In this document: positions 11,897-55,200 of the stretch, piece by piece
How positions within the stretch are numbered: position 1 is the first letter of the stretch
Layout: every line of letters starts with the position of its first letter
Origin: Chaetoceros tenuissimus
Lineage: Eukaryota; Bacillariophyta; Thalassiosirophyceae; Chaetocerotales; Chaetocerotaceae
Assembly (NCBI GenBank): GCA_021927905.1
Contig: BLLK01000022.1
Span: 2,170,001-2,234,000, forward strand
DNA length: 64,000 nt
Direction: 5' to 3'
Translations under genes and position numbers: made by a program
The notes under the pieces: generated by a model
Database searches by the model: none
Told to the model about the DNA's origin: nothing
The model's input: only the letters and a program-made list of their open reading frames with translations

Positions 11897-12094
11897 GTAA
11901 AATCACTTCGTACTTACTCAACATTACGGTATGCGTTACAGTCGCTTTTTGCACAGAGGAGAGGGTCCGCCGTTCCTTCCGTAGACACGAATGCCAGCTA
12001 AAAAAGGGGTCTAGGATTACAAAGCTGAAATGAATAAGGACGTATGTCCCTTTGTTTTGAGGAAAATAAAAACGATAGACCAGGACCTTGGTAT

Positions 12095-12936
12095 TTAACA
12101 GCAGAGTCGTGTAAGAATACCTGATTTTTGTGAGTTTTTGCTGCAAAGTGAAAATGCTAATTTCGGCTCCAATGGATGCGCAATAAAAAAGTAATACCTT
12201 TCTAAAAGCTCTTTTTACGCTTGTTTCAAAACTGTAATCGACGAGAGCGCGCATGCTTTCTGAGTCGAGAAAGTACCCTCTAAAATAGCTTACTTCGGTT
12301 ATGTCACAGTTTGATTGCAACCATATTTCTCGCCACAAAATGAGTTGTCGATTCTGAGAAGTTACAAATATATTCTTGAAGTTATTTTGTGAATGAATAT
12401 GTAATTACTTTAACCATAGAATAAAAGCAAGTATTTCTATCGAATGCATCTTTGGAGGGGTTTTCTTTGATTCTTTATCGTACGTACAGACTGTACCAAC
12501 AATGGCACAATCTCCGTCATTGGTCTGTGAAATCGAGTGAATTTGAAGCCAATTTCGAATCATGAATCGACAATGTCTTCTATACCCTCAAAAAGATTAT
12601 TTTGCAGTCAATCTACAGCTAATGTAAATACACCAATCTTTCGAAAACTATTCAAATGAACAGTATGTAACTTGTTGGAATCGACAACTCATTTTATGGA
12701 GAGAAATATGGTTGCGATTCAACACCAAATATTTGAAAAAATGACCATCTCGTCTGACAAAAAGCTAAATTTCTCGACTCAGAAAGCTTGCGCGCTCTCA
12801 TCGATTACAGTTTTGAAACAAGCGTAAAAAGAGCTTTTAGAAAGGTATTAGTATTTTATTGCGCGTCGATTGGAGCCGAAATTAGATTTTCACTTTGCAG
12901 CACAAAATCGGTATTCTTACACAACTCTGCTGTTAA
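12095..12936. repeat. long imperfect inverted repeat (foldback-type element)
   Basis: The left arm (12095-12354) is the reverse complement of the right arm (12678-12936), with scattered substitutions and small indels; the spacer is about 323 bp. The best-matched core (about 12165-12260 against 12770-12870) is nearly identical. The outer ends start with TTAACAGCAGAGT. No coding capacity for a transposase is seen, so a non-autonomous foldback/MITE-like element or a decayed hairpin locus is likely. Confidence 0.85.
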
Positions 12937-13165
12937 TAATTTCCCGGCTTCAGTTTTAATATAAATTTATTTATAAAGAACTTTTCAAAGAACTACCAAG
13001 CTTTCTCTTCTTTGGAAATGAAATAGTTGAGTTCATTTTATTACGTATTTTATTAAAATCACTTTTATTAAATTAAAAATACTTTTTCGTCTGTAACGTG
13101 AATATTACTATTACTTTTTGCATGGATATATACATTGAATGAATTAGAAACCAAAGCACGAATGT

Positions 13166-14707
13166 CTATGCTTCGAAATCATCGTCATTGAAAGTCTCTT
13201 TCTTTTGTCCTTTCTCGGCAGCATCAAAGACGTTAGCAAGGTATGGTCCAATAGATGGGTCCTTCTTCATCAACTTCTTCAAAGATGCTGGAGCATTGTC
13301 AGCGAATCCAGGGAGTTTACCCATGTGTCCTGCTCCAACTGGTACGTGGGAAGAACTGTCTCCCATCTCTCCCTTTGCACGCTCCTCAGCGGTTCCAATA
13401 TATACCTCATCACGCTGGTATCCAGCAATCTTTCTGTGAATAGCAGCAATTACCCAAGCAGCTCCACAAAGTCCGGTTGCCTCAAGAAGAAGACAAAGGC
13501 GTAGAAGAATGTAGGTGAATGGAGAAGAAAGGAAAGCAATTGGGAAAGCAGAAGCTACAAGCTGCCAAGAGATGGATGCACAGATGGTGGTGATAAGTGC
13601 TCCAAGGAATCCAAATCCGAAGAACTCTTGAAGTCCATCAGATACTCCGAAAACGTTGTCCTCTCCCTCTGGGATAGATACAGAGGTTACACGAGCAACG
13701 AAGAACATACAGGATACAACACAAAGCTGACGTCCAATCATGAATCCTGGAAGGTTGTGTCCCTCTCCACGGAAAAGAAGCTCACAGGTTTTCTTAGCCC
13801 ATACAGACTCTCCACGCTCAGATTCCTGAATCTTGGATACAGCGAAGAAAGCAATTTGCATACCCTCAAGCATACCTACAACGGACATGAGGAAGAAGAA
13901 GATAAGGGTAGCAAGCCATGCTGGAACTCCCTCCCACATAGTAGTCTTTCCTTGGAAAAGAGCCTGAAGGGTAACAGCGAAACATCCGATAAGGATAGCA
14001 AGAGAGTAAAGACATCTGATCCAGAAGAAAGCAGCCTGTGCAGGGGTACGTGGATCCTCGTTAGACTCAATCTTCTTTCCAGCCATAGCAGCTACAGCCA
14101 TCTGAATAAGGTAGGAAGAGTGAACAAGTCCAGAGAACTCAACAGCCATAGCTACCCAAAGAGTGAAAAGTGCAAAGTAGGTGTTGATGTAGTCAAGCAT
14201 ACAGTGGGAAGCGTTAACCTGAGTGTTAAGCTGTCCAACGTTACATGTGAAAAGAATCATAGCAAGTCCGGTCTGGAAGAAAAGAGTAATGATCCAGTCA
14301 GGCATTCCCCAAAGCTCAGCTCCTCCAAGAGGACCTCCAGAAACGTTAACACTGAAAACAACAAATACAACCATGAACTGACGTCCGAGAAGGTATCTGT
14401 CAAGGTTATCTCCTTTGTTGGTGATGGAAGTACACTTGTAGGAGATGGGGTGAGAATCTCTGTAAAGCTCCTTGTTTACTGGCGCAAGTCCTACAAGGGA
14501 AGCCTGTCCTCCCTCAACCATGGTAAGCCAAAGGATAGCAACCCAGATAAGAACGTAAGCTGCAGCTGGATGTGCATCAGCAGAAAGGTTGGTCTGTCTG
14601 GATGCGATCAATCCCATGATACATACAATGGAAAAGATAAGAAGGCACATGGAGTAGAACCCCTTGAATGCGTTAAGCGGGTTGGAAAGTGCTGAAGAGT
14701 CTCCCAT
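13166..14707 (-). CDS. SIT: silicic acid transporter (SIT)
   Basis: 513 residues from the ATG at 14707; an upstream in-frame extension is not needed. It takes up silicic acid for frustule formation, with Na+ coupling known in marine diatoms. The diagnostic SIT motifs occur once in each of two inverted halves: EGGQ (65-68) with GRQ (108-110), and EGMQ (281-284) with GRQ (325-327). The family CMLD motif is at 169-172. About ten hydrophobic helices are followed by a hydrophilic C-terminal tail of about 90 residues. Codon use is strongly biased (GGA, TCC, AAG, GTT favoured), like the ribosomal protein genes in this window and unlike most neighbours, which suggests high expression. It is divergent to the RluA-type gene. 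Confidence 0.97.
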   Translation of the reverse strand: MGDSSALSNPLNAFKGFYSMCLLIFSIVCIMGLIASRQTNLSADAHPAAAYVLIWVAILWLTMVEGGQASLVGLAPVNKELYRDSHPISYKCTSITNKGDNLDRYLLGRQFMVVFVVFSVNVSGGPLGGAELWGMPDWIITLFFQTGLAMILFTCNVGQLNTQVNASHCMLDYINTYFALFTLWVAMAVEFSGLVHSSYLIQMAVAAMAGKKIESNEDPRTPAQAAFFWIRCLYSLAILIGCFAVTLQALFQGKTTMWEGVPAWLATLIFFFLMSVVGMLEGMQIAFFAVSKIQESERGESVWAKKTCELLFRGEGHNLPGFMIGRQLCVVSCMFFVARVTSVSIPEGEDNVFGVSDGLQEFFGFGFLGALITTICASISWQLVASAFPIAFLSSPFTYILLRLCLLLEATGLCGAAWVIAAIHRKIAGYQRDEVYIGTAEERAKGEMGDSSSHVPVGAGHMGKLPGFADNAPASLKKLMKKDPSIGPYLANVFDAAEKGQKKETFNDDDFEA

Positions 14708-15246
14708 TTTTATTAATACTAGATATGGTATTATCGAGTGTAATTCAGAATTATGAGAACATGAATGAGGAAGAAAGAAATATTTGCATTGAAAATGAGG
14801 GGTTTGCGTTCCGCCGGCCACAACATGTCTTGGATTGTGAGAATGCTTCACCAACCCTTCTCAAATAGGCTAAAGTAATATAAATATAGCTCTTTCAACG
14901 ACAAAGTAAAGCGTTCCATACTTTTGAACATTCCGATGACATTTTTCAAATTTCAAGTATGCCATTACATAAGCCTTTTCTATGCTGGTGAGTGTCTCTA
15001 AAGTAAGTCCAGGTGAGAATAGAGAAGAGGATTGTGAAAGCCAGATGAATGCATCATCCTTCAAAAGAAGAATCAAATCATCATCTATGGTTTGGATTAT
15101 GAAAGTACCTTATTTCTTATTTCACCCCCTCTCCTCCCCCCACAAAAAGATCTTTCCATCTTCCATCATCACCAGCACCACACAAACTCTCGCATTAGAC
15201 TACCTTATCTCCATTCATGATGATGTAAAATGGTCTGTTCGAAATA
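14708..15246. other. promoter region between SIT and RluA-like genes
   Basis: A 539-bp divergent intergenic region with a C-rich pyrimidine tract around 15120-15143. It would hold the SIT promoter. No gene is recognised. Confidence 0.5.
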
Positions 15247-16764
15247 ATGCTCAAGAGCATCATCCATAGGAACCATAAACTGAAGAAGAGAGTCATGACC
15301 ACTGTTTCAGAGCCCAAGAACCATCTACAGACGTTTCTAACGAGGCCTGAATCAGAAGAAACATTCATAGAAGATAATGAGACTTGTTGGGGAACAAAAG
15401 GTGATCTCAAAGACCTCAGAGCATTATTAGATATTCTCGATAAATCACAAACTATTTTGCATGAATGTAAAGACTATATTGCCATCGATAAGCCACCAGA
15501 CTTGAGAATGGACGGTAGCTATAGAGCATCGGTGCACAAACTAACTTCGTATTGGTATCCGTCGCATCTTCTTCGACAACAATCAAATTTATTACAGGCT
15601 GTTGAATGTTTACATCGACACAATTATTTGAAAGATAATGAACTGCGACCTATACACCAATTAGATTTTCCAACCAGTGGGGTGCTACTTATTGGAAGAA
15701 ATAAAAAGGCTGCCGCTATTGCAGGTGAATCTTTTGTTAATAGAACAGCACGCAAATCATACTTGGCAATTGTACATGGACATTTGAATGTTTTGAATAG
15801 AGAATTACCAATTTTAAATGCTTCCAGACTCAAGTTTCTATCTGAATCAGAACGTGACTATAAAAAGATCAAGGATCCAAAAAGAAAAGGCGATACTTTC
15901 ATAGGATTTGTTCCCTTACATACTGCTTTTATAAAATGGCAAAGTGCAATGAAGGAGAAAATAAAATTGAAAGAGACGAGAGATTCCAAGGAATTGGAGG
16001 AATTTCATGCAATGAAAAAACAGCGACAGGAAAAGAAAATGAAGAAAGCTTATGTATTGGATCCAAAAGAATTTGATCAAGTCATGGAAAAATCATTGCA
16101 TATTTCCGAAAAAGATTCCATAGAACTGTTGGATATGAAATGGAAAGATGTCAAATGCAACGTTGCATGGAAGAATGCCTTTGAAAACATGACAAAAGAA
16201 TATAATAGAGTTTTGAAAGACAAACATGATAGAATACTAAACCCTCCTACGGAAAAGTTGCCAACACTTTTTCGTGTAGAAGGTGAAGATGAAAATACAT
16301 TTTATATTTATGCGCCTTGTGCACAAGTGAAGGAAAGATACAAAATGATGCTACTCCCGGATTCACTCGTGAACGATCCATCATTAATTCCTAATGACGA
16401 ACAAATAGAGACGTTGGATTTCAAACCAGCATTGACAAAATGCAAAATATTAGAGAGAGGATATCTTAGTGGGAAAGCCACGACAAAAGTGGAGCTATCT
16501 CCACATACAGGAAGACGTCATCAACTCAGGTTGCATATGGTAGTCGCCGGTAGCCCTATAGTTGGCGACATTAGTTACGAAAATGAGTCCAATCCTTGGG
16601 AAATTTGCTCTAGAATGTGCCTGCACGCGCATAAATTGACATTGGATCTCAAAGGAAAAGAGTTGAGTGTTATGGCGCCAGATCCTTTTATAGTAAACCA
16701 CATTGATGTGGATGGATCGAATGAACGAATAGTCAATTTTCATGTAAAGATACCAGGAAAATAG
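15247..16764 (+). CDS. RluA-family pseudouridine synthase
   Basis: 505 residues. It isomerises uridine to pseudouridine in RNA. The catalytic loop is HQLDFPTSGVLL, with the catalytic Asp at residue 140 (the family consensus is HRLD). The C-terminal RNA-binding segment SPHTGRRHQLRLHM and the GD(I)SY element are present. A charged insertion of about 130 residues, roughly 205-335, rich in Lys and Glu, splits the catalytic domain. Such insertions are uncommon in bacterial members but occur in eukaryotic ones. There is no S4 domain. The N-terminal 20 residues are basic, so an organellar role is possible. The target RNA is unknown. It is convergent with GatA. Confidence 0.88.
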   Translation: MLKSIIHRNHKLKKRVMTTVSEPKNHLQTFLTRPESEETFIEDNETCWGTKGDLKDLRALLDILDKSQTILHECKDYIAIDKPPDLRMDGSYRASVHKLTSYWYPSHLLRQQSNLLQAVECLHRHNYLKDNELRPIHQLDFPTSGVLLIGRNKKAAAIAGESFVNRTARKSYLAIVHGHLNVLNRELPILNASRLKFLSESERDYKKIKDPKRKGDTFIGFVPLHTAFIKWQSAMKEKIKLKETRDSKELEEFHAMKKQRQEKKMKKAYVLDPKEFDQVMEKSLHISEKDSIELLDMKWKDVKCNVAWKNAFENMTKEYNRVLKDKHDRILNPPTEKLPTLFRVEGEDENTFYIYAPCAQVKERYKMMLLPDSLVNDPSLIPNDEQIETLDFKPALTKCKILERGYLSGKATTKVELSPHTGRRHQLRLHMVVAGSPIVGDISYENESNPWEICSRMCLHAHKLTLDLKGKELSVMAPDPFIVNHIDVDGSNERIVNFHVKIPGK

Positions 16765-16837
16765 GCACTAAATTTTGAAGAAATGCAAGATTTAAAGTAG
16801 CTAGCAACAAATATAAAGTAATTACATCGTCCATTAT

Positions 16838-18445
16838 TTACAATTGCAATATTCTAGCTGTATTGATAACTTTCTTATCGGAAAGTCTTGGTCCAAAAAT
16901 CTGCATTCCCACATGGGAAACATCACCTTCATTGATGGGAATATTAATGGAAGGCAGTCCTGCTAAACTTATTGGAACAGTCATGACATCATTCTGAAAA
17001 GCTTCCGTGCTGTCTATCTGAACATCAGTACCAAGCTTTGGTGGCTTTGTCAATGCTGTGGGGATGATCATCAAATCAACAACATCTTCGCTACTGCACT
17101 CGTCCCCTTGACCAAATGCATGATTGAATTCTTTTGTCATTGTTCCTCTTACATTTGAGGCACCTTCATAATGAGTATGAAAGCGGTCAGATGACAAGAC
17201 TGCAGTTCCTGTCAAAATTCTTCTCTGTACTTCTTTTCCAAATCCTTTAGATCGTACAATTGCAAACTGTCCTTCTCTAGCTGCCATTCCTTCTGGAACA
17301 TCTAAATCACCTGAACTTGAAAGCCCATATCGCAATCCATCATATCGTGATAAATTAGAGCTTGCTTCTGCACATGAAAGAACATAGTATGCTGGTAAGG
17401 TCATTTTCACTGTTTCGGATGATATTGTAGACTCGGGAATTATGACAATTGTAGCTCCTTTCTCTTCTAACTTTTGTATGGTGTCATCCCATGCTTGATG
17501 CACATCTTTCGAGCAGCCTGTAATTGAAAATGCAGCAGGTACACCAATTTTGAGTCCCTCCAAGGAATTGTCGGTAGATTCAGGATCAATAATGTCTTCT
17601 CCCATAAAACAAACAGTGGAATCTCTTAAATCCTCTTGCAAGTCCAATGTATTATTGTTCTTCTTTTCATTTTTAATAATGTCAAGAGCATGCCCTACAC
17701 ATGTAACACTAGACCCAATGATTCCAACAGTATCAAGCGAACTTGCATAACTAACTACTCCATCTCTTGAAATACTTCCGTAAGTAGGTTTCATCCCCAC
17801 AACTCCACACCAAGCCGATGGCAACCGTACCGATCCACCTGTATCGGTTCCAATCGATATAAAAGATGATCCCATGGAAACACTCGCTGCACTACCAGAA
17901 CTACTTCCACCAGGACTGACAATATGTTCTCGATCAACATCAAACGAAGGAATCTTGAGAGTTTGAATATTTCGGATAGACTCATCCAAAGAGAAATCAT
18001 GTAAAAAAGGCAGAGGATTCACAGTGTACCCTCGATTACAATTCGAACCTAAACTCCCCATACCAAATTCATCCATATTAGTCTGACCAATCACAATCGC
18101 TCCAGCCCTCTTTAATTTTTTAACCAATAATGCATCATATCCTGGTGTACCTTCCAACATATCAGAGCTTGCACTCAGTGGGAAATCTCGAGTGGCAATG
18201 TTACTCTTTATAGATATAGGTATGCCGTCCAATATACTTAATGGTTGACCAGCTTTGTATCGTTCATGTGATTCATTGGATAAGTCAATGATATCTTGTA
18301 TTGAATTCAAACATGAAAATATGTTGAATGTTTCATTGGTGGAGGACGCGAGTGAAAGGCAGTAGGTGGACAGTTGTGTAGGGTTAATAGTTTGTTGATG
18401 AAATAGTTTGTGGATAATTGGAATCGTCAGTCTATTTCTACTCAT
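16838..18445 (-). CDS. GatA: glutamyl-tRNA(Gln) amidotransferase subunit A (organellar)
   Basis: 535 residues from the ATG at 18445; the frame continues upstream without an ATG. GatA is the amidase of the GatCAB complex, which converts Glu-tRNA(Gln) to Gln-tRNA(Gln) in mitochondria and plastids. The amidase-signature triad is visible: Lys in IPISIKSN, cis-Ser and the nucleophile Ser in the GGSSSGSAASV motif and the following GTDTGGSVR. The segment GQTNMDEFGMGS is characteristic of GatA rather than other amidases. The first 30 residues lack acidic residues and look like an organelle targeting peptide. Confidence 0.93.
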   Translation of the reverse strand: MSRNRLTIPIIHKLFHQQTINPTQLSTYCLSLASSTNETFNIFSCLNSIQDIIDLSNESHERYKAGQPLSILDGIPISIKSNIATRDFPLSASSDMLEGTPGYDALLVKKLKRAGAIVIGQTNMDEFGMGSLGSNCNRGYTVNPLPFLHDFSLDESIRNIQTLKIPSFDVDREHIVSPGGSSSGSAASVSMGSSFISIGTDTGGSVRLPSAWCGVVGMKPTYGSISRDGVVSYASSLDTVGIIGSSVTCVGHALDIIKNEKKNNNTLDLQEDLRDSTVCFMGEDIIDPESTDNSLEGLKIGVPAAFSITGCSKDVHQAWDDTIQKLEEKGATIVIIPESTISSETVKMTLPAYYVLSCAEASSNLSRYDGLRYGLSSSGDLDVPEGMAAREGQFAIVRSKGFGKEVQRRILTGTAVLSSDRFHTHYEGASNVRGTMTKEFNHAFGQGDECSSEDVVDLMIIPTALTKPPKLGTDVQIDSTEAFQNDVMTVPISLAGLPSINIPINEGDVSHVGMQIFGPRLSDKKVINTARILQL

Positions 18446-18877
18446 GACTTTACTTTTGATGGGTCTTTTGGGGATTTGCAAATATCTATTTGATGTGAAT
18501 AGGATACAGACGAGTAGTGATGAGAGTAAAAGATAAGAGCTGAAAGAGTGACTGAGTGAGTGAGATGCTCTGATAAATAATGAGGTTTGGTGGTCGGAGC
18601 CTCATTTTTGTGAGGGGAATAACACATACTTTAGCTATTTTGATCAGATATAGGCTCTTTTCATACTTACAAAACTTTCTTCCAGATCTTTTCATCTTTA
18701 CCAAAAAAGCCAACGCGACGATGTTCGATGTTCATCTCAGTCATCAAGTGATCGAGTCAGAAAAACAGGCACATAATAATACGATAATAGGTGCTTTCAT
18801 TTCATAACATAGACTTGAACTACAACACAACATACAATCTAAAGCATACTATATAAAAATATAGATCACCTCTGAAA
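18446..18877. other. intergenic, divergent promoter region
   Basis: Spacer between GatA (minus) and the MsrB-like gene (plus). A TATA-like run (TATATAAAAATATA, about 18848-18861) lies just before the MsrB-like ATG. No gene is seen. Confidence 0.5.
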
Positions 18878-19770
18878 ATGTATCGCTCAAAGTTATCAGG
18901 TCTCGCGTTTCTTTTCGCAATGATGCACTCTGTAGAAGCTTTCTCATCACCAAACAATCGCCGTGCTTTCCTTGATCAATTGACAACTGTAGCAACTGCA
19001 GGTGTAGCTGCATCTGTTTTGGCACCATTAGATGCAAATGCTGAAGATTTAAAAGTAGGAGGTAATATTAAATTTGGAGGAGAAGATATCATGATTGGAA
19101 AGGCACATGGAACGTCTGCCACTCCAGTTCAAGATGAATTGAGATATGGAGTCAGTGACAAGCTTGCTGATAAGATTTGCAATTTCAATCGTCATTTTGC
19201 AGAGTACTCGGGATATTTTACTGGAACTAGTTTTGAAGAAACTGTTAGAAATAGTGATGGGCCAGTGACTTTTTATGATAGTAACACTGGAAAACCACTT
19301 TTTGTAGCTCCGATTGGAAGAAGTGTAGATGAATTTATTGAGGAGTCTAAATATCAGTAAGTGCAAATTGCAGTAAAGAACTTAATTCTTTGCAATAAAA
19401 GCAAGAATATGCTTATGTGCTAACTACTTTGTACGAATTTGATCATGAAGTGGGTGGCCCAGCTTCAGGGATCAAGAAGTAGGTGAGTATTGAATTTATA
19501 TATTATTAATATCCATAATCTGCTTCCACTAACCACGATTTCACATAAATAGTTTGGGATAATGTCCGAGTTTTGAAGAATAGTGGCGAGACTGTTTCTG
19601 TTGACGGAACTCATCTTGGACGTGAGTACTTTTAACTTGAATTATATTAATTATTATTATCTATAATCTGCTTGCACTAACCATGATTTCGCATAGATAA
19701 CATTCCATCAAGAGATAAAAGAAATCGTTACTGTATTAACTTGGTGAGTGTGGCTGGAAATCCTGTTTAA
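18878..19770 (+). CDS. plastid MsrB-like methionine-R-sulfoxide reductase
   Basis: Four exons: 18878-19356, 19451-19482, 19553-19621 and 19697-19770, with introns of 94, 70 and 75 nt, give 217 residues. The first stop met by simple reading is created by a donor site. The spliced protein contains GWPSFRDQEV, DGTHLGHNIP and the catalytic RYCIN motif of MsrB, which reduces methionine-R-sulfoxide. The N-terminus has a signal peptide ending VEA-FSSP, the diatom plastid ASAFAP-type junction. An NRRAFLDQL segment and a hydrophobic stretch ending ANA follow, which suggests twin-arginine import to the thylakoid lumen. The two CxxC zinc motifs of classical MsrB are absent, so activity is uncertain. Exon 2 is only 32 nt. 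Confidence 0.88.
19515..19695 (+). repeat. homologous segments in two consecutive introns
   Basis: A 33-nt segment at 19515-19547 (intron 2 of the MsrB-like gene) matches 19663-19695 (intron 3) at 30 of 33 positions. It includes a likely branch-point CTAAC and reaches nearly to the acceptor. Flanking ATTAAT stretches are also alike, so the introns appear related by copying. Confidence 0.8.
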
Positions 19771-20136
19771 TATGACTTTGTAGAGAAAGAGAGATACATA
19801 TGAGTCTAGAAGAATCGCATCGATCAAAATTGGAACAAAAGGTAATTCACTCTATGCTGAGGGATAATAGGTTTAGGGATAAGGATGAAAATATATTAGA
19901 ATAGTACTTAATAATGAAAAGAATTCTCAGATTCTGTTTAGATTTATTTAGCATCATACTTGAACCTTTTCTTTGGCAGTAATTTCGTAGGCGGTCTTAT
20001 GACTTCGCATGAATGCAAGCTATGGTTATATAGGTTTCCTCATCCCTTCTTTTTAGCAATAATATATTTTACATGGGAATGGAATTGAAAATGAAATATT
20101 TGTAACAACAGATGAAGAGTTAATCTGATGTGGGGA
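19771..20136. other. intergenic between convergent genes
   Basis: 3' flanks of the MsrB-like gene and the cyclin gene. No gene, repeat or structured element is seen. Confidence 0.5.
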
Positions 20137-21123
20137 TTAATGAAAGATAACACTTCTCGAGTCTGAAGCTTCATCCGTCACACCAATAGGAGAGTATGAT
20201 GTGTATTGTATATCTTCGGTCTTTGTCTCGGCTCTATCAATGTCAAAATCATCGAGACTATATCCTCCTTCATAGAATGTTTCCTTCATACGTAGCATGC
20301 AGGCATGCACATCTTCGGAAAGAACATTGTCTTGTGCCAATTCTTCGAGTTCTTTTACAAAAGAAGTCGCAAATTGGCAGTATATATCTGATCCGGAGCC
20401 TACAATATCAAATGCAGCAAAGACCGCAGCAAGTGCAACGATGGAATGTTTGAACGGAACAAAGAAATAGTCAATGACACTATTCTCGGTGAGAAAATCT
20501 GTTATCTCACAAATGATGTCTTTGCGGGGTATTGATTTTCGTAACAGGGGCTTCAAAAGGAAGCTTGTTTGAATGGTAGGAAGTGGAGGGTTGAGTCTCC
20601 ACTGCAATGCATCAAGCATTTTCTGTTCCATATTGAGAACATCACATGAGTTGAATTTGCCATCACTCATTCGGACTAATAAGCTTAACGGCATAGTTCG
20701 CTCTAAGCACACCTTTGCAGCTATAAAAAGCGATGTAGCAGAAGCTAATTGAAAACTCCATTTACTCATTGGGCACAGACATAGATACCTATCCAAGTAA
20801 TTCATGGCTTGAGCAACGACTTCACGCGAAAGACCTAGATTATCGACGACACAGTATTGCCATGCAACTATTTGTTCACGCCAAGATATTGATAAAGGCT
20901 CAATAGTATGAATACTATTAGTGTCTTCCGCTATATCTTTATTCTGAGCATGTGTTGATTTTACAATGAATGAATTATTGCTTGAATTGTCGACGAGCAT
21001 GTTTTGATGACCAGTTGACAAATAATCTAAACATTCATATAGTTGCTCCTTAGATCGAAGACCTCTATACATTTCACACATCTGTATTGTGGTGAAATCA
21101 ATTATTTTAGAGCATTCTTGCAT
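20137..21123 (-). CDS. cyclin (diatom-type)
   Basis: 328 residues, single exon. A cyclin N-terminal box lies at about residues 80-205: it begins with a WREQIVAWQYCVVD element (the Arg of this helix is conserved in cyclins), then MNYLDRYL and SLFIAAKVCL. The cyclin C-terminal half follows with several helices. The protein would bind and activate a cyclin-dependent kinase. Diatoms have a large expansion of lineage-specific cyclins, and the overall pattern (short N-terminus, PLPTIQTSFLL after the box) fits that group rather than A, B or D cyclins. No clear destruction box is seen. The last 30 residues are acidic and Ser/Thr-rich. Confidence 0.85.
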   Translation of the reverse strand: MQECSKIIDFTTIQMCEMYRGLRSKEQLYECLDYLSTGHQNMLVDNSSNNSFIVKSTHAQNKDIAEDTNSIHTIEPLSISWREQIVAWQYCVVDNLGLSREVVAQAMNYLDRYLCLCPMSKWSFQLASATSLFIAAKVCLERTMPLSLLVRMSDGKFNSCDVLNMEQKMLDALQWRLNPPLPTIQTSFLLKPLLRKSIPRKDIICEITDFLTENSVIDYFFVPFKHSIVALAAVFAAFDIVGSGSDIYCQFATSFVKELEELAQDNVLSEDVHACMLRMKETFYEGGYSLDDFDIDRAETKTEDIQYTSYSPIGVTDEASDSRSVIFH

Positions 21124-44263: not shown

Positions 44264-45119
44264 ATTGCTCGTCTAAGAAAAGTAAATTAATAGTCCTGTG
44301 TGATTTCTATTATTTTCTTTGACGAATATAGAATTAAATGTTGGATCTGATAAGGGGAAAAGCAATCGTTCAGTTACAGAATAAATTGTGTGGTAGATAA
44401 AAAGCTTAGTTTGGAGTGGTGATAATGTCCCACCAGTAATGTTCATGTATGCTTCCTTTTTATTCATATCGAATTTCTACCTCTTCTATTACATTTGAAG
44501 CTGACTTCATGTTGCATTTGTTTCTTTCCTTCTGATTAATTCAATTTTCAAAAACTTTTTCAACATAGGGAGTGTAATTAGACTATAGTGACAGCTTTGC
44601 CTTAATTCACAGGTTTCTTCCATGACAAGAGCCTATTCTAATAGTTGTTTGCACACTGTACCAATTTCCCTTTCTTATAAAATGAAGTTGTTGCATAGAA
44701 ATAAAGATCCCTCCATTTTACTTATTTACTAGCTAGCTAGTGCAGCTTGTATTTATTCGCGTCTACGTATGTAGCTACGTACTCGTAGGTGCAAATAGTA
44801 CGCTTCTTGGAAACCTACAGCCACGCTCAGCACCCTCTCATATAATTACCATTACTACATCTATACATTCAGAAAATCTCGAGCATTTCCTGAATGTGCC
44901 TCTTTAGATTAAACATAGAATTGCTTTGAATGTGCTGCTTCCCCGCTAAGAAATCTTCGTACCTTAAATGTGACGGTTAATGGATCCGTTACTAGCTTAG
45001 AAAACAAGACTGGTTTTAGTCGTTTTGATTCTTCTTTATTCGTATTCTCGTATTTGTTCAAATCGTTTTGATCATCGTGTGTGTTCCATCGAAGTCACAA
45101 AATAACAAAAGATCGAACT
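44264..45119. other. intergenic
   Basis: 856 bp with no credible gene. It contains CTAGCTAGCTAG and TACGTATGTAGCTACGTA stretches around 44730-44785. It precedes the 45120 gene. Confidence 0.5.
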
Positions 45120-45791
45120 ATGAATCTCCTCAATAAGGCAGAAGACAACAAGTCAAAGGAATTGTGTGAAGAAGCCACGAGAATTCTTCGTTCACAAAAA
45201 GGTGTGCCGTCTGATTTTCATGCAAAAGTTGCTGTTCGAGCTGATGTAGATGCGGTGAAGAATGCAAGAGAAGCTGCCTCAGGTGGTAAATGCTGTCTAC
45301 TCATGTTTTACTTTCCTCCCTTGATTTTTCTTAGTCTCTGCACTGGTTTGATTTGTGGCATCCGTAAAACAGAGAAAATTTTTAACGGCTGGCTTCAAGA
45401 TGCAGAAGAAGACATCTATGTATATGGAGATGCTGGATTTGCAATTCTAAATGGAGGTAAAGTGAAGGAATGGACTCCGATGAACGACTCAGATTTGATT
45501 CTATACCCATCAAGAGATACTTTCTACTATAAAAGTGGTACACATACCACCCGACAGCCAGTTCTTATTCTGAAGAAGAAAGTTTTTGGGGAAAATAACA
45601 GGAGTGCTGGTTGGGGAGAAACTCCAATCAGTGCTGATGTAAGACTAGGAAAAACAAAGCAAGTTTGGTTCGTGGGAAGAAATGATTTCGATACATTACC
45701 TTTCCGTTGTGGTGCAGGAGGTTTGATGAATGCAGGTAACATGAATACTGATATGGCTTCTATGATGCAGAATTTCATGAGTAATCAATAG
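45120..45791 (+). CDS. hypothetical protein, 223 residues
   Basis: Starts at the ATG at 45120; the frame is open a little upstream without ATG. The N-terminus is helical and charged. A hydrophobic segment (about residues 58-80, containing FYFPPLIFLSL) could be a membrane helix. The middle and C-terminus are hydrophilic, with a VWFVGRNDFDTLPFRCGAGG segment and a Met/Asn-rich tail. I do not recognise the family. A GT...AG pair around the hydrophobic stretch was considered as an intron, but splicing it gives a stop at once. The last 37 codons lie in the 1,125-bp duplication and recur at 51094-51204. The gene itself is complete. Confidence 0.6.
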   Translation: MNLLNKAEDNKSKELCEEATRILRSQKGVPSDFHAKVAVRADVDAVKNAREAASGGKCCLLMFYFPPLIFLSLCTGLICGIRKTEKIFNGWLQDAEEDIYVYGDAGFAILNGGKVKEWTPMNDSDLILYPSRDTFYYKSGTHTTRQPVLILKKKVFGENNRSAGWGETPISADVRLGKTKQVWFVGRNDFDTLPFRCGAGGLMNAGNMNTDMASMMQNFMSNQ

Positions 45792-46805
45792 ATTGAACAT
45801 GATGCCAAAAACAGTACACGAGATATTGCCAAGACCTGGCTAATCTTTGCATAGATACTGAATCGATCATAGAATTAGAAGGATACGTTACAAAAAAAAG
45901 AAGAATAATGATAATTATGTTATATTTCAATTCATAGGTAGTGTTTTTAAGATTTTATTCTCTTTTCATTTTTGCTTTTTCTCTTTCGTTTCCGTGTATT
46001 ATTCTATATTATCTATCTTTGTCTAATGTGTGCTTTCTCTTTCGTTTCGTGTATTATTCTATATCTTTGATTCTTATAATTCTTTTTCTCTCTAATTGTT
46101 GCTTCTCTTCATATGGAAGTACATTGCAGTTGCAGCTATTGTACAACCTACCAAAAGTACAAATCCTTGTACTGCGAACATGAAATTCATATTGTTTGGA
46201 TTTGATACATCCAATCTGCGTAATCTTTCTTCCAGAAGAAGCAATTGCTCCATTTCCTTCTCCTTCTCTTCCTTCAACTCTCGCATTTCTGCCTCCTTGT
46301 TTGCATTTGCTGCATCCAATTTACGTAACAATTGCTCCATCTCCTCCTTCTTTTCCATCTTCAATTCTTGCATTTCCTCCTCCTTTTCCATTCTCAATTT
46401 ATTCTCCAATACCTCTAACTTGCTCAATTCAGAAGCCTTTTCCGATGCATATCTAACTTCGAGCTGTTCCAATTTGCGAGCTAGCATAGTATCATCTTCT
46501 ACCGTTCCTGCTCCTCTATTCAATGCAGCAACAATGTATAGAACTTCCTCTTCCTCTCTCTTGTTGTCAGGAGTTCTGAAAATCCCCATGTCACTATCAT
46601 GAGGAATGATTTTCACAGAATGAACGTCTAAACCATGTGACGGTAACAACCTTCTTCTAGTATCAGAAGGAGAAAGATCATGTAGGCTTTGCTTGAGTCT
46701 TCTAAAAATGTCAAAAGAACCTTCGGCTTTGCTGCCTAAGCCTCTTTGATTCTTTGATGATTTAGATTTCATCGAAGGGGGCTTCACATGGACTGTAGTT
46801 GTAGC
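45681..46805. repeat. left copy of 1,125-bp host duplication flanking the retroelement
   Basis: Identical, as far as I can see, to 51094-52218 (offset 5,413). It covers the 3' end of the 45120 gene and, on the minus strand, the last 238 or so codons of the giant gene. It ends at the first base of retroelement sequence; AGC at the junction is shared by host and element. Confidence 0.95.
46092..46805 (-). pseudogene. duplicated 3' fragment of the giant secreted-protein gene
   Basis: Carries the terminal part (coiled Glu/Lys-rich region and C-terminal membrane helix) of the gene whose complete copy is at 51505-62275. It lacks the upstream 3,100 residues because the duplication ends at 46805, where retroelement sequence begins. 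It has no promoter or signal peptide of its own. Confidence 0.9.
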
Positions 46806-47062
46806 TGTTTTCACAAGAATTAGCTACACAAAATACCGATCCAGAAGAAACACCTTCTGATGATAAAAGCGAATACTCTGTCACCTGCGACCGCATGACA
46901 GTATGCTATCACGGTGCTAAAAACTTGAAAAGTATTCTATCTCCAAGAAAAGGCCGATTTGGAAAGAACTTCTCTGTTGCCTCCAGCCTTGCTAAGCTAG
47001 AGGAAACAGCAAATCTCTGAATCCCTGTATCCTTTACAGAGAGGGAATTTCTTCGCTACAGG

Positions 47063-47133
47063 GATTTTTTTCAAATCTTCGACATTATCTGTCCGCTAAA
47101 GCGAACAGATAATGTCTCGATTTGAAAAAAATC
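47063..47133 (+). other. long hairpin in retroelement 3' UTR
   Basis: A 15-bp outer stem (47063-47077 with 47119-47133), a 12-bp inner stem (47081-47092 with 47105-47116) and a 4-bp apical CGCT/AGCG stem, all perfect, separated by small bulges. A 10-bp hairpin (47021-47030 with 47057-47066) lies just upstream. The same structures recur at 50750-50820 and upstream of it. It may be a transcript end or an RT-recognition structure (inference). Confidence 0.8.
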
Positions 47134-47274
47134 ATTTAATTTGGAATTGTGAGCACACCGTACAACATTTTGCAGTACATTTTCATACTGTGTCATGCCC
47201 GGGAGATTAGGCTAATTTAGCTAATATCAGCGATGACTCATTATCGCTCACAAAATGAAAAATAGAAGGTTACG

Positions 47275-47335
47275 CCAACTGATGAAGGCTTACCATGCCG
47301 AAACAAGTGGCTCTCATCTCCACACATTGTTTTGG
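47275..47335 (+). ncRNA. candidate hammerhead ribozyme, left copy
   Basis: CTGATGA at 47279-47285 is followed by a 3-bp stem II (GGC 47287-47289 with GCC 47297-47299) and GAA at 47300-47302. Stem III is ACAAGTGG (47303-47310) against CCAC (47320-47323) and TTGT (47327-47330). The cleavage base would be U47331. Stem I is CCAA (47275-47278) with TTGG (47332-47335). One deviation from consensus is an extra A at 47286 before stem II. Hammerheads in the pseudo-LTRs of Penelope-like elements are established knowledge. Confidence 0.6.
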
Positions 47336-47420
47336 ATCTACCTCTAACTATTAAAACTAGTTTCGAAAAAGTTCTACTTTACATCTACTCTACACTATAC
47401 ATCAGATTATCAACATAAAG

Positions 47421-48605
47421 ATGTCAGAACCTGCGACAACGGCTCTTCTTCCTGCGAGTAAACACTCTAGACTCTCTTTTCAAGATGATGCAGCGCCTTC
47501 GGCGCTGCCATCCATCTTAAAGAACAAGAAAGTGCTTCAAGCTCCTATCAATAGAGCTCGACAGATCATTCGTAAAGCCCTTGAAACGCTCGAACTAGTC
47601 TCAGAAGAGAAAAAGAATGACTTGGCTAACACTTTCACCAATCATTTCAAAACGATCAACAAGAAACGGACTGTGCTTGACAAGTTTAAGGATGACTTCA
47701 TCCCCAAACCGCTTCGAATCAAACCCTCCATTAAAGTTAGTAATAGAGCTGATGAGGCTTTCCAAACCTCTATTGCTGAACAGGAGAAAGAAGCGATTGA
47801 GAAATACCAACAGGCAATGACGAAAGTCATGAAGTCCGCAGCCCAAAAAGAGCTGGAACTTGTATTATTGGACCTGGCTGAATTCAGCGTCCAATTTACA
47901 ACCACTCTTGTTGAAATTTGGATTTATATAAACAAACCCGACAACAGCGAAGAGTTGATCGGGAATCCCAACTTTATAGTCTTAAAAGCTCTCAAGATGA
48001 GAGAAAATGAGAATGACTTAGAGAGCAAACAACTCATGTATGGACTCTTCTCCGGTTGTAATATTGGTCAAGTGCTAGTTAACCTTACCAACATTACAGA
48101 CCTCAGAGCTGATACAGACTCGTATAGTAGACTCGACAGTGCAAAAGACTGCTACAACTTTGTTTGCAAAATCTTGAAAGAGACTTTGTATGACAGCTAC
48201 GATGCCTACACTGCTGCCTATGAAAAAGAAGAGGCAACCCTCAATTTCGACAGCAAATTTGATTTAAAAAAGAAAGAGACAGCAGCAGCAGATATGGAAA
48301 TTGAATTTGATAACGCTGCGGGTCCCGCGGCTGCAATCATTAACAAAAATGCAACAGATGAAAAGATTAAAGCGATGGAAAAAGAAATCAAAAAACTCCA
48401 AAAACTCCAACAGAAATCAAAAAACTTCAATGGGGCCGAGGAGACAGCAAATGCAAAAAAGACAGCAAATGCAAAAAAGAAGAGCGCCAGCAAAAAATCT
48501 TCTCATCGTCAGAAACAACAGCAACAAAGACAAAGAAACCATCAGGGCAGAGGCAGAGGCAGAGGTACCTCAAGCGGAAGATCAAACAACAGATCTCAGA
48601 GATAG
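47421..48605 (+). CDS. retroelement ORF1 protein, basic C-terminus
   Basis: 394 residues, 14 bases after the junction with the partial copy. It is rich in helix-forming charged residues, with a Lys/Glu stretch (about residues 310-345) that may form a coiled coil. The C-terminus is strongly basic, with GRGRGRG and a Ser/Arg/Asn-rich tail like RNA-binding tails. No zinc knuckle is seen. By position it is the ORF1 nucleic-acid-binding partner of the RT. Its end overlaps the RT frame for at least 145 nt. Confidence 0.8.
   Translation: MSEPATTALLPASKHSRLSFQDDAAPSALPSILKNKKVLQAPINRARQIIRKALETLELVSEEKKNDLANTFTNHFKTINKKRTVLDKFKDDFIPKPLRIKPSIKVSNRADEAFQTSIAEQEKEAIEKYQQAMTKVMKSAAQKELELVLLDLAEFSVQFTTTLVEIWIYINKPDNSEELIGNPNFIVLKALKMRENENDLESKQLMYGLFSGCNIGQVLVNLTNITDLRADTDSYSRLDSAKDCYNFVCKILKETLYDSYDAYTAAYEKEEATLNFDSKFDLKKKETAAADMEIEFDNAAGPAAAIINKNATDEKIKAMEKEIKKLQKLQQKSKNFNGAEETANAKKTANAKKKSASKKSSHRQKQQQQRQRNHQGRGRGRGTSSGRSNNRSQR
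48455..48479 (+). promoter_or_regulatory. two candidate -1 frameshift heptamers
   Basis: A-AAA-AAG occurs at 48455-48461 and again at 48473-48479, both in the ORF1 phase required for -1 slippage (gcA AAA AAG). From each site the -1 frame is open through the ORF1 stop and continues into the RT ORF. Confidence 0.6.
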
Positions 48606-50707
48606 AAGACGAAGAAAGGGAATGGCAAACCAAAAGAAATCAGAAGAAATTGAGTTTATTTAACAATAATACTCGTAAAATAATTTCTATCTATGGTTAT
48701 TGCCCTAATCCTCGTCTCTCTGCAAAAACAAATGCCTGCCGACTAGCCGTGAAACTTCCAAAAGAGTTTCAGATAAAAAGACCAAAAAACATGGCATATC
48801 ACAACCTTTGCAAAAATACAAAGGTACCACCATTCATTAAGAATCTACTTGGTTTAGGACTTAAATTCTGTCCAAACCCTAAACAATCAAGCACACCATC
48901 AGATATCGCACTACAACGGCTCAGTGACGATTATCACCGCTTTATCTTCTTCAATAGCAGCACACAAACAGACTATGAGAAGCCCCCCTTGTACATTAAC
49001 AAAAATTGGGTACCAAAGATACCAGAGAAATACAAACAACGATTTGAAAGATTCCAAGAACGGATCATTCATGACTTCTCAAAATCAAAAAAATGTGAAC
49101 CTAACTTGACACTACAACAAAAACGTGCTATGAAATGGCTACAAGATAATCCAAACGTCATTGTGTTCAATGCTGACAAAAATCTTGGTCCAATAACAAT
49201 GGATCGAGATGAATACATCTTCTTAGCCCATAGAGACCATCTCTCCAACACCACCGCATACAAAAGATTGACGCCAGAAGAGAAGACTAACAGAATCCTC
49301 CAAGTCATGAATTCAATTGACACTTTTTGCGACGTTTGGGAAAATTAGAGATGGCTTCCAGAAAATGAAGTGATGTTTATTAAACAAAACACATCAACTA
49401 ATCCATCATGGTTTTATCTCCTAGCAAAGATCCACAAAACCCCACTTAAAACGAGACCAATCATCTCTTATAGTGGTAGTACCTGCTACGGACTTGCAAA
49501 ATGGCTTGATGTAGAGCTCCAAAAGATGCTACCTTTTCTTCCCTACATCGCGACCAGCAGCAGAGAAATTGTATCTGAGCTGAAAGAGCTTGAACTGCCA
49601 GACTCTGCTCGATTAATAACCATGGATGCTACAGCCATGTATACGAACATCCATCTCGAGCACGCTAAGGAGGAATTAAGCAAATTCCTCCTAGAAGACG
49701 AATTAGGCACAAGTGTTGCAACCTTTGCAGGGATATGCCCTGCAATGCTTATTCACGCTCTGGAAATCGTCATGACAAATAATATATTTGCTTTTGGAGA
49801 TACTTTTTGGCTGCAACAAACAGGTACAGCAATGGGAACGCCGCCAGCTCCACCATGGGCTACAATCTATTTCTGTATACATGAACACAGAATTATCAAC
49901 AAGTTTCCAGAATTGCATTACTATCGTCGTTACATAGATGACGGCTTTGGGATATGGATTCCACAAGATGATACTCCCAACATCCGTCTCGATGAGTTTA
50001 AAATGACAATGGCCAGCTACGGTATAGACCATCCTTTCTTTGCACGAACTGGACTACAGCCATTACAATGGGAGTTCAGCTCTCTTGATACCTCTGCTAT
50101 CTTTCTTGACTTGAACATATCCATCAAGAACGGAAAAATAGCTACAACGATCTATGAAAAAGACCTGAATCTATACCTATATATCCCACCACACTCGTGC
50201 CACTCGAAAGGAGTACTTAAAGGTCTCATTTCGGGTATGGTATACCGTGCTAAGTGTCTATGTACTGACACTATTGATATTGTTCCTTTTTTAGTAAAGT
50301 GTCATCAACGTTTACTAGATAGAGGATATCAAGATGAGGATATACGCCCCCTTTTCAAAGAAGCCATTTCTACATACTTTGGACCGAATCAGCTAGATAT
50401 ATCTACAACAGAAACAGTAGAAAAAACAAGACCAATCTTTCTACATGTCAATGTCAATCCTGCCGATCCTCCATCGTCTTACTTTCAAGAGCTGTTTTCA
50501 CAAGAATTAGCTACACAAAATACCGATCCAGAAGAAACACCTTCTGATGATAAAAGCGAATACTCTGTCACCTGCGACCGCATGACAGTATGCTATCACG
50601 GTGCTAAAAACTTGAAAAGTATTCTATCTCCAAGAAAAGGCCGATTTGGAAAGAACTTCTCTGTTGCCTCCAGCCTTGCTAAGCTAGAGGAAACAGCAAA
50701 TCTCTGA
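48461..50707 (+). CDS. retroelement reverse transcriptase ORF (one internal TAG)
   Basis: The -1 frame relative to ORF1, open from the slippery sites; the first internal ATG is at 48650. The frame is interrupted once by TAG at 49346-49348 (WEN-stop-RWLPENEV) and then continues to 50707. RT regions: an N-terminal DKNLGP block before the stop, then LAKIHKTPLKTRPI, MDATAMYTNI (first catalytic Asp), GTAMGTPPAPPWATI and RYIDDGFGIW (the YxDD pair). After the thumb, the C-terminus is short (CYHGAKNLKSIL, PRKG) with no endonuclease domain. The copy is otherwise intact, so it is a recent insertion that has taken one nonsense change, or the stop is read through. Confidence 0.85.
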
Positions 50708-51093
50708 ATCCCTGTATCCTTTACAGAGAGGGAATTTCTTCGCTACAGGGATTTTTTTCAAATCTTCGACATTATCTGTCCGCTAAAGCGAACAGATAAT
50801 GTCTCGATTTGAAAAAAATCATTTAATTTGGAATTGTGAGCACACCGTACAACATTTTGCAGTACATTTTCATACTGTGTCATGCCCGGGAGATTAGGCT
50901 AATTTAGCTAATATCAGCGATGACTCATTATCGCTCACAAAATGAAAAATAGAAGGTTACGCCAACTGATGAAGGCTTACCATGCCGAAACAAGTGGCTC
51001 TCATCTCCACACATTGTTTTGGATCTACCTCTAACTATTAAAACTAGTTTCGAAAAAGTTCTACTTTACATCTACTCTACACTATACATCAGA
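50490..51093 (+). repeat. right pseudo-LTR (604 bp) of the retroelement
   Basis: Second copy of the end repeat (offset 3,687 from the left one), overlapping the last 72 codons of the RT ORF. The junction with duplicated host DNA shares AGA. Confidence 0.95.
50962..51022 (+). ncRNA. candidate hammerhead ribozyme, right copy
   Basis: Identical to the left copy, with CTGATGA at 50966-50972 and the predicted cleavage after 51018. Cleavage at both sites would release a 3,687-nt unit-length RNA from a tandem transcript. Confidence 0.6.
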
Positions 51094-51204
51094 AATGATT
51101 TCGATACATTACCTTTCCGTTGTGGTGCAGGAGGTTTGATGAATGCAGGTAACATGAATACTGATATGGCTTCTATGATGCAGAATTTCATGAGTAATCA
51201 ATAG
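51094..51204 (+). pseudogene. duplicated 3' tail of the 45120 gene
   Basis: The last 37 codons (from NDFDTLPFRCGAGG to the stop) of the hypothetical gene, without its start. The frame is joined upstream to retroelement sequence. Confidence 0.9.
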
Positions 51205-52218
51205 ATTGAACATGATGCCAAAAACAGTACACGAGATATTGCCAAGACCTGGCTAATCTTTGCATAGATACTGAATCGATCATAGAATTAGAAGGATACG
51301 TTACAAAAAAAAGAAGAATAATGATAATTATGTTATATTTCAATTCATAGGTAGTGTTTTTAAGATTTTATTCTCTTTTCATTTTTGCTTTTTCTCTTTC
51401 GTTTCCGTGTATTATTCTATATTATCTATCTTTGTCTAATGTGTGCTTTCTCTTTCGTTTCGTGTATTATTCTATATCTTTGATTCTTATAATTCTTTTT
51501 CTCTCTAATTGTTGCTTCTCTTCATATGGAAGTACATTGCAGTTGCAGCTATTGTACAACCTACCAAAAGTACAAATCCTTGTACTGCGAACATGAAATT
51601 CATATTGTTTGGATTTGATACATCCAATCTGCGTAATCTTTCTTCCAGAAGAAGCAATTGCTCCATTTCCTTCTCCTTCTCTTCCTTCAACTCTCGCATT
51701 TCTGCCTCCTTGTTTGCATTTGCTGCATCCAATTTACGTAACAATTGCTCCATCTCCTCCTTCTTTTCCATCTTCAATTCTTGCATTTCCTCCTCCTTTT
51801 CCATTCTCAATTTATTCTCCAATACCTCTAACTTGCTCAATTCAGAAGCCTTTTCCGATGCATATCTAACTTCGAGCTGTTCCAATTTGCGAGCTAGCAT
51901 AGTATCATCTTCTACCGTTCCTGCTCCTCTATTCAATGCAGCAACAATGTATAGAACTTCCTCTTCCTCTCTCTTGTTGTCAGGAGTTCTGAAAATCCCC
52001 ATGTCACTATCATGAGGAATGATTTTCACAGAATGAACGTCTAAACCATGTGACGGTAACAACCTTCTTCTAGTATCAGAAGGAGAAAGATCATGTAGGC
52101 TTTGCTTGAGTCTTCTAAAAATGTCAAAAGAACCTTCGGCTTTGCTGCCTAAGCCTCTTTGATTCTTTGATGATTTAGATTTCATCGAAGGGGGCTTCAC
52201 ATGGACTGTAGTTGTAGC
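51094..52218. repeat. right copy of 1,125-bp host duplication
   Basis: Matches 45681-46805 over the full length. It restores the complete 3' end of the giant minus-strand gene. It carries a 37-codon tail fragment of the 45120 gene at its left edge. Confidence 0.95.
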
Positions 52219-55200
52219 AGTATTCACATCTAGACATGAACTTTCTACGGATACCGAATCTGCATCCTCAATGTCCATCAGAGCCATGAGATTCTTCTTT
52301 GTATCGCTGGTTATGGACGGAAGAGTCAAGTCTGTGCAAATAACAGTATCTGCTTTGAAATTAAAGGCTGTCGAAGCGGCTGAAAGATCCAAATCACCAA
52401 ATCTCCTAGTAAACTCAATGTTGCCTCGAAGAGGGTCCATCTCATTTCCATTCACATCCTTGATTCTACCAAAGCTACCATCACCAACCGCGCCAATCTC
52501 GACATTGAATGTTTTGCCAAGAAGCAATGCTGGATCAACAAAAGCCAAGTCAACCTGAAATCCGATCGCTCTACCTTCACAATGCACCAACAAATTAGAT
52601 AGCTTGGTGAAAGGTTGATCAATACCTTCAATTGTCATTTGTACATCAAAGCTCAGTGGAAGACTACAGTCCAAATTTTCTGTGAAGACTACTGTAATTT
52701 CTTCCCCTACAATCACGTCCTCACGAAGAGGTAGAGCATTTCCATACTGCTCTGGTCGACTACGATCAATGACTCCAGAAACAATATCAGCTCTGTTGAA
52801 AGAGAACTCATCCGGTCCTCCAACATTTGCACATTCTGTCTCTACAATAATCTCGTAGGTTGCATCAACTAGTTCACCAACATTCCAGCTAGCAGTTGCA
52901 TATCCAAAGCTATCTTCGATAATTGGATCTTGTGAAAAATCAACGTCACCAAGAGTTCCATTTTTTGCCAAATTCCAAGTTTGTGTACCCTCTTGACGAT
53001 AACGCAAATAAACATTTTGCAATCGACCATTTGGTTCGAGCATGTCCTTGAACTTCTTCTTCTTTCCTCCCATCGGATTGAATACTATAACTGAAATTTT
53101 ATCTTCATTGTCAGACTGAGTATTGAGCAAAAAGGTTTGGTCCCTCTTGATCTCGCCGGCCCACTCTACAGTTGGACAAGGTTCAAGCCAACGGAGTCTT
53201 TGCTCGAATGTGACTGGATCAATATAGTTATAGAGAGGAACTGTCACAGATTTCACCAAATAATCCATATCTTGTTCGCACTTGCTCTTCAGCACAAGCT
53301 GTACAGGATTAAAGTCGTATCCATCAGGACCTCTGTATACACGCACTTTTCGATTGACTCCTTTTTCTTTGTCCAACTTGATCATCGATCCATAATATCC
53401 AAGCTTTACTGCATTATCGAGACGAGTTTCCAATGCTGAGCCACCATCTCCCATGTCCTGAGCAATGAGAAAGTAGCTGTAAATATGTTCTCCTACATTC
53501 AGCAATTGGACTTCGAATTCAATTACATCATCTGGAAAAATAAATGAAGATGGTGTTGAAACAAGGGTAAGGCGAGGATCTTCTCCTGCAATTGTATTAT
53601 CCTCTTGATGACATTTACTGATTCCCGATATTGTATCAAACACAAATGATTTATACAATGGATCATGATAAATATCAACCACAAATTCATCCCCATCATC
53701 AGGATCTCCGAAAGCGAATGATATGGATGTCTCGGATTCCTTAGAATCTGTGATTGCTGATGTATGTTCAATATGAATACCAAAATTAAATTCTGGTACC
53801 AGTGTGAAAGCAGTTCCAAAGGCATTCAATTTAGTATTGGCTGTCGTTTCAATACCAAGATCCAATTCATAGTTACAACCTCCTGCTGCGTTCGTAACCA
53901 GAGCTGCTGTTACTAGTGGAATGAGTATGGCTGGAGCCGTGAGTCCAAGTTTTACTCCACCAGCAGCAACGAATCCACCCACTGCTCCTACTATCCCCCA
54001 TGGAATATCGCAGTTCTGCTCCTGATACGATTGCATCGCAGCCTTGTTAAGTGACATTTCTAATGTCCCAGCATCTCCTACAAATTGGACTCTCTTTACT
54101 TCTCTAAGTGTATCTTTCCCTTCACCCGTAATGCTCGTCTTATTTAATGCCAATTTCAGCAACGTTTCGCCATTTTCGGTAAGATTAGCATCCTTAATCA
54201 ATGTTTCAGGCACCAAAGCTGTTTTGAAATCCATCCCATTCAAGTCATTGTTGAAGTCATCGTCAGTCACAACTTGGTCGATTTCATCATCGTCGAACCA
54301 ATCTGATATCGACTTCCCTGCGTCAATAGCTTCTTGTTTAGTTCTTTTTTCTTCATCAAATACTTTCAGCCAGTCATCATAAGCACCTTGCAATATGTCT
54401 TTTTCGTCCTCAATTGCTTTCACATCTGCGTCCATTGAAGCATCCAAGCCAGTCGGTTTAGTACCACACTCACGTAGTTCATCTTCTGGTGCTTTCCCCT
54501 TACAAGAACCATATCCATCTTGACAGCATATTTTCTCCTTATTCTTAGCCTCTTCTATTTGATCTTCCATTGACTGAATTGAATTCGAAATCTCTGGTAT
54601 CTTCACTAATTTTAGATGATAGCGCGAATAGAAGGAAAACGCAGGCTTGTTGTTGGATGATTTGAAATCAACTATAATGGATGTTGGAACTTCAGTGACG
54701 TTCTCCTCCGAATAGTAGTCAAACCTTTCTACTAGAACTGGTTCACAATTATCTTCATCCCACTCAACAATAGAAACTTCCTCATATGCAACATTTAAGT
54801 TTGGTACTGAGACAGGAATGTGAGTGCATCTTGTGTAGTTGGCTACAAAATTAAATCATTCTTTCATCAATGACTTACCAACAAAAATGTCACTTTCGGG
54901 GCCTGCTCTCGTTGGTTCAGAGCTTGTCTGGTAAGACCATGTAACTGAATAAGTACTAGAAGCCTCGCTTTCTTCATTGGAAAAGTCAGTCTGGAGTTGA
55001 GCACCAGGAGTAATAGTTACAACAGAATTTACATCGGCAACATCAGTACAAAAAACTACAATGGCACCCAATCCTCCTCCAGAGCATTGATCCGATTTAA
55101 AGTCGGCACCTAATCCTAATGCTGCTTTCGCCTCACCACTCCCAGTCACTTTCATTGTATCAGATACGGCTCTGATTTTGGTGACAACATTTTCAAACTT

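Follow-up and report, generated by a model that had tools for sequence, protein, structure and literature searches.

LINEs with their own endonuclease make the second cut close to the first, and in endonuclease-independent or twin-primed LINE-1 insertion, target duplications are usually short or replaced by deletions. How Penelope-like elements (PLEs) that lack an endonuclease integrate away from telomeres has, to our knowledge, no settled answer. Kilobase target duplications as a rule for PLEs were not found to be reported in the titles and abstract openings of the open-licence literature searched. In the excerpted account of Adineta vaga, the Penelope elements with a GIY-YIG domain have target duplications of 8-10 bp or none (PMC3846280), and the same excerpt calls the endonuclease-deficient PLEs Athena and Coprina telomere-associated (PMC3846280).

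The retroelement insertions of Chaetoceros tenuissimus described here resemble the Adineta vaga elements, as far as that excerpt extends, in their partial tandems, variable pseudo-LTRs and 5' truncation, in microhomology at the 5' junction, and in captured or chimeric sequences and inverted copies (PMC3846280). Unlike them, they can be flanked by duplications that range from 97 to about 2,690 bp, and they yielded no GIY-YIG domain. Like Athena and Coprina they have a reverse transcriptase (RT), here apparently of PLE type, without GIY-YIG, but the copy studied first (W) and most surveyed copies lie far inside contigs, between long host duplications. Like endonuclease-independent and twin-primed LINE-1 insertions, they would use existing breaks and two primed ends, and they have microhomology joints; unlike LINE-1, half of the surveyed copies have long duplications, and the RNAs of two elements can meet in one insertion.

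W lies in a window of 64,000 nucleotides with a GC content of 38.9%, on contig C16 of a genome that was searched as 41.03 Mb in 68 contigs. The genome paper, in its excerpted part, gives 41.0 Mb, 38.9% GC and 85 scaffolds, the largest of 4.46 Mb (PMC8613185). Positions without a contig label refer to the window, and C-numbers denote contigs of the same genome. The insert in W is probably a PLE without an endonuclease of its own that entered at two breaks on opposite strands. Long host duplications around elements with no recognised DNA-cutting domain suggest insertion at two distant breaks, with the neighbouring genes left whole.

The duplicated host segment, here called X, lies at 45681-46805 on the left of the insert and at 51094-52218 on the right. 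The initial annotation had described an insertion between two 1,125-bp host copies, and the two are identical at all 1,125 bases. The left edge is ambiguous by three bases: the identity extends three bases leftward (AGA, the same as the element end), and X could start at 45678. The left copy ends in AGC, three bases that are likewise shared with the element, so that both short matches named in the initial annotation, AGC and AGA, are seen at the junctions. A genome-wide search found two occurrences of full-length X. When the 30 longest self-matches of the window were screened for direct repeats with a length of at least 80 bp and an identity of at least 90%, X was joined only by the 604-bp repeats of the element and a 108-bp pair at 500-698. 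The members of that pair are neighbours, at 500-607 and 593-698, and are 95% identical. The same contig has partial, diverged relatives of X, with 90% and 74% identity, at distances of about 24 kb and 116 kb (C16:2245831-2246426 and C16:2099537-2100173), which suggests that the gene at X belongs to a local gene family.

The left copy of X finishes a plus-strand host frame (45072-45791, stop to stop), and the right copy finishes a minus-strand frame of 1,116 aa, stop to stop (51505-54855), the truncated end of which is found inside the left copy (46092-46823, minus strand). When the empty site is modelled by script, both convergent frames come out the same as in the filled site, in agreement with the earlier view that one gene is completed by each copy and neither is damaged. 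The frames are preserved because this geometry keeps any frame that crosses one X edge only. In such models of the empty sites, all nine ORFs of at least 120 aa that cross one X edge are kept, two of them overlapping on opposite strands at locus L025, and no ORF of that length spans both edges.

The insert begins with a 5'-truncated copy of the element (46803-47406, plus strand; unit positions 3084-3687), the first three bases of which (AGC) are common to X, and continues with a full unit of 3,687 bp of the PLE family termed A (47407-51093, plus strand). All 604 bases of the truncated copy are identical to 50490-51093; these direct repeats were absent from the initial annotation. This structure is a partial tandem made by template jumping with 5' truncation. 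The 604-bp repeats were also considered as LTRs, which is ruled out because the length of the repeat follows the cut point and so varies from one copy to another. An LTR retrotransposon was rejected as well, with no integrase or protease domains found by Pfam and a duplication of 1,125 bp rather than 4-6 bp.

In the full unit, ORF1 (47421-48605, plus strand; 394 aa) has no Pfam family above the cut-off. The ORF2 frame is divided in W by one in-frame stop, which ends its first part (48371-49348, plus strand); the second part (49349-50707, plus strand) carries the RT motifs and no GIY-YIG domain that could be found. An open counterpart of 778 aa is present on C54. The RT looks Penelope-like by the motifs LAKIHK, MYTNI, GTAMGTP and YIDD, which we take to be of PLE type. 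It has no match in Pfam or PDB, and the AlphaFold model made in testing it has a mean pLDDT of 35. The RT of the second PLE family, B, is 46% identical to that of A.

That the element has no visible endonuclease, as the initial annotation put it, agrees with the Pfam scans, in which no endonuclease domain was found. None of the PLE proteins scanned has a GIY-YIG domain, and the two GIY-YIG places listed by the genome search (C50:25606 and C44:855772) are not near a PLE copy with an RT. By Pfam, the Exo_endo_phos domain of APE endonucleases is absent from A, B and a LINE-like family, R, which together with its relative N is unrelated to A and B; the domain is present in a control LINE (L039). 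A full-length R copy has an ORF of 2,219 aa with RVT_1 as the sole Pfam domain found, and R could have an endonuclease that Pfam misses. The R/N 3' ends examined carry CCTAAA-type repeats.

A hammerhead ribozyme is common in PLE pseudo-LTRs. The sequence CAACTGATGA...GAAAC is present in A and B; the full hammerhead fold is absent in A and has one weak candidate in B, and neither family has a hammerhead match in Rfam. In both PLE families, a palindrome of roughly 70 bp lies close to the 3' end (unit A 3344-3414, unit B 3282-3348); in W it is imperfect and occurs in the upstream copy (47064-47132) and again in the full unit (50751-50819). The 5' cut points of four copies (L002, L004, L005 and E15) fall within it, and it is possibly a stalling point of the reverse transcriptase.

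The structure of W probably arose from a bottom-strand break at the left X edge and a top-strand break at the right X edge, 1.1 kb apart. The bottom-strand 3' end would pair over a few bases with the 3' end of an element RNA and prime reverse transcription. On reaching the 5' end of this RNA, the enzyme would jump to the 3' end of a second RNA and copy 604 bases, after which the cDNA end would be joined to the other host end at a three-base match. Copying of X from both strands would leave one X on each side. For an element without an endonuclease, the second 3' end would come from an independent break, and the spacing would vary up to kilobases; breaks of the opposite polarity would give no duplication. 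Across the surveyed loci, the two opposite-strand breaks proposed for insertion would be separated by as much as 2.7 kb.

The survey covered 24 copies: seven of family A (W, L001, L002, L004, L003, L005 and L008), nine of family B (E15, E6, E10, E9, L012, L013, L014, L047 and L048) and eight of R/N (E7, L022, E24, L025, E36, L023, the C32 copy (L040/L041) and L042). E6 and E7 consist of pieces of two families and were each counted once, and the E10 array was counted as one. The per-family counts are lower bounds, as they come from the best-scoring candidates and the B listing lacked the array on C19. Outside the survey lie B places at C29:728236, C34:4027445 and C29:337022, R/N places at C16:564060, C14:1051852, C44:1064309, C23:10872 and C65:28524, and R/N relatives of about 65-71% identity.

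Looking for long flanking duplications at other copies had been proposed in the initial annotation, and 12 of the 24 copies, W included, prove to lie between direct repeats of host DNA that measure from 97 to about 2,690 bp. The kilobase duplication that the initial annotation linked to the insertion is supported in kind, and the outcome is a repeated one. The X-element-X arrangement recurs in three families: four of the seven A copies, three of the nine B copies and five of the eight R/N copies have long duplications, and the seven among the 16 PLE copies measure 97 to 2,139 bp, where a canonical Penelope element would have about 10 bp. In family A, the X pairs are those of W (1,125 bp aligned, 100% identity), L001 (1,830 bp, 99.95%), L002 (about 690 bp, 97.0%) and L004 (97 bp, 100%). 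In family B they belong to E15 (2,139 bp, 99.25%), E6 (338 bp, 100%) and E10 (558 bp, 100%), and in R/N to E7 (2,390 bp, 99.87%), L022 (1,870 bp, 99.84%), E24 (1,173 bp, 99.06%, with one mismatch and ten gap positions), L025 (2,693 bp, 99.48%, with two mismatches and 12 gap positions) and E36 (1,678 bp, 100%). Identity reaches at least 99% in eleven pairs, all but that of L002; six of the 12 have no more than one differing base, over lengths of up to 1,830 bp. W lies at 2.2 Mb of a 3.68-Mb contig and L001 at 2.4 Mb of 3.33 Mb; most surveyed copies are far inside contigs, and some are near contig ends.

A recognisable element 3' end lies at most about seven bases from an X edge at 11 of the 12 loci. 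L002 has lost the last 210 bp of the unit, with 7 bp between X and the match. At L022, L025 and E24, stretches at the other X edge, in the 5' parts, have no match to the reference N sequence. Counted by hand, 9 of the 12 junctions of W, L001, L004, E15, E6 and E10 have microhomology of 2-7 nt. The shared bases at the two junctions are 3 and 3 in W, 4 and 1 in L001, 0 and 6 in L004, 7 and 3 in E15, 3 and 2 in E6, and 0 and 2 in E10; both zero-homology junctions (L004 and E10) carry one extra base. Apart from L004, no common sequence motif or hairpin was seen at the X edges across loci. At L004 (C16:882001-889000, about 3204-3300 and 3601-3697), a near-perfect inverted repeat of about 14 bp bounds the 97-bp X in the manner of a hairpin loop. 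The inverted similarity of its flanks scores 22, against a null mean of 7.1 (sd 1.3, maximum 12), and the direct score of 12 equals the null maximum; the other 11 loci gave no signal of an inverted repeat bounding X.

Joins between copies within an insertion connect unit position 1 with the exact unit 3' end in W, L001, E15, E6 and E9, and do so twice in E10; joins elsewhere are found in L002 (3687 to 616) and at one other E10 joint (165 to 3393). The upstream cut point varies from copy to copy, and with it the repeat length, so the partial tandem copies are pseudo-LTRs with a variable 5' cut point, as in PLEs.

Two insertions bear on the number of primed ends. In E6 (L006+L017, C21:552501-567000), the 3' end of an 81-bp piece of family A lies at the left X edge; a B insertion comes next, and its 3' end lies at the right edge. 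E10 has two sets of B copies between its X copies, the first presenting a 3' end to the left X edge and the second to the right edge. At this locus (C19:636001-664000, 6544-20290), the B copies form an array of 13.7 kb in which tandem series face opposite ways; its two right-hand copies have a 67-bp gap (unit 3290-3356) that is not in the first left-hand copy, hinting at different RNA templates for the two ends. The first 64 bp of E7 are a family A 3' end with the orientation of the N sequence behind it, which is what a jump between RNAs would give. Element 3' ends at both X edges in E6 and E10 favour two separate target 3' ends, and two such ends, each extended on its own RNA, would directly give these structures. 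The PLE insertion of E6 sits in the second copy of an older tandem duplication (861-2021 and 7670-8833, 96.7% identity), near which a frame looks like a heat-shock-factor gene.

We infer from these products the breaks, their order, the priming at them and the filling-in. It is about an even bet that the nuclease-less retroelements of this diatom share one route, in which two distant opposite-strand 3' ends are each reverse-transcribed, even on RNAs of different elements. With the same even chance, these ends would come from independent nicks or a broken replication bubble, and the product would be sealed between two copies of host DNA. If this route exists, it would explain how PLEs without an endonuclease live inside chromosomes, and each such insertion would make a kilobase duplication that spares the neighbouring genes. 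By this route, retroelements could occupy gene-dense DNA with the genes left intact; the route would also be a source of kilobase duplications missed by annotation tools that seek short target duplications. With a dozen recent insertions in one genome, two of them apparently primed at both ends, the question can be tested in other strains.

Opposite nicks and a broken replication bubble both fit as a possible source of the two ends. For the bubble, X would be the stretch replicated between two forks that collapse on opposite sisters; the left piece would end with X, the right piece would begin with X, and both 3' ends would prime on retroelement RNA. This gives the same X-element-X geometry and the two primed ends of E6 and E10 without long gap-filling, and it accounts for the kilobase scale; that no common X-edge sequence was seen neither supports nor excludes it. 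We consider the bubble unlikely as the source. Microhomology-mediated break-induced replication, in which a broken end extended on retroelement RNA re-enters upstream and recopies X, would also produce X-element-X and accords with the microhomology at most scored junctions. Its single primed end, however, poorly gives element 3' ends at both X edges of E6 and E10, which makes it improbable.

A draft assembly of a genome with a reported heterozygosity of 1.56%, a figure from the excerpted genome paper (PMC8613185), might lay two haplotypes end to end, but haplotype copies of X should differ by more than 1%, and the near-identity of half the pairs and the recurrence of exact element 3' ends at X edges leave such an artefact very little room. 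Unequal crossing-over between two element copies at the two X edges gives exactly X-element-X at any single locus of a probably diploid host, but it is scarcely credible, since it requires a nearby pair of insertions at each of 12 loci in three families and poorly fits the mixed or opposed elements of E6 and E10. Insertion into the junction of an X that had already been tandemly duplicated is just as hard to credit, having no direct support beyond the older tandem duplication by the E6 locus, needing an insertion exactly at the junction at 12 loci, and finding no other full-length copies of the two X segments searched genome-wide.

The copies without a long duplication count against the preferred reading, insertion at two opposite-strand breaks. 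Within the stretch examined, the long duplication is absent from 12 of the 24 copies: L003, L005 and L008 in family A; E9, L012, L013, L014, L047 and L048 in family B; and L023, the C32 copy (L040/L041) and L042 in R/N, L023 having been tested by a genome search with its right flank. Eight of them (L005, L013, L014, E9, L047, L048, L042 and the C32 R copy) match the reference for their family at about 94-100% identity, and age alone therefore cannot account for the missing duplication. A forward test of the duplication prediction on L047 and L048 failed, with no duplication in either, the right flank of L047 extending just 677 bp to the contig end. In the ten duplication-free copies tested for a short junction repeat (all except L008 and L023), none of at least 6 bp was found; the longest was 5 bp, compared with a maximum of 7 among swapped flanks, and the PLE copies in this test had at most 4 bp.

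The few controls from the same genome include a Gypsy element with a 5-bp duplication (TCTAG) and a 3' fragment of an APE-LINE with ACACATA, which measures 7 bp by eye and 8 by script. In a second APE-LINE fragment (L046) no short duplication is clear, and 14.5 kb around a complete APE-LINE copy contains no long direct repeat. The families surveyed here have either a long duplication or no duplication, as would follow if the second cut is not determined by the element. Among the duplication-free copies, E9 (L021+L009, C16:2928001-2943500) is a near-perfect B copy without a direct duplication, and its right flank opens with 50 bp that recur exactly, in inverted orientation, about 1.15 kb leftward of the element (6846-6895 and 12871-12920).
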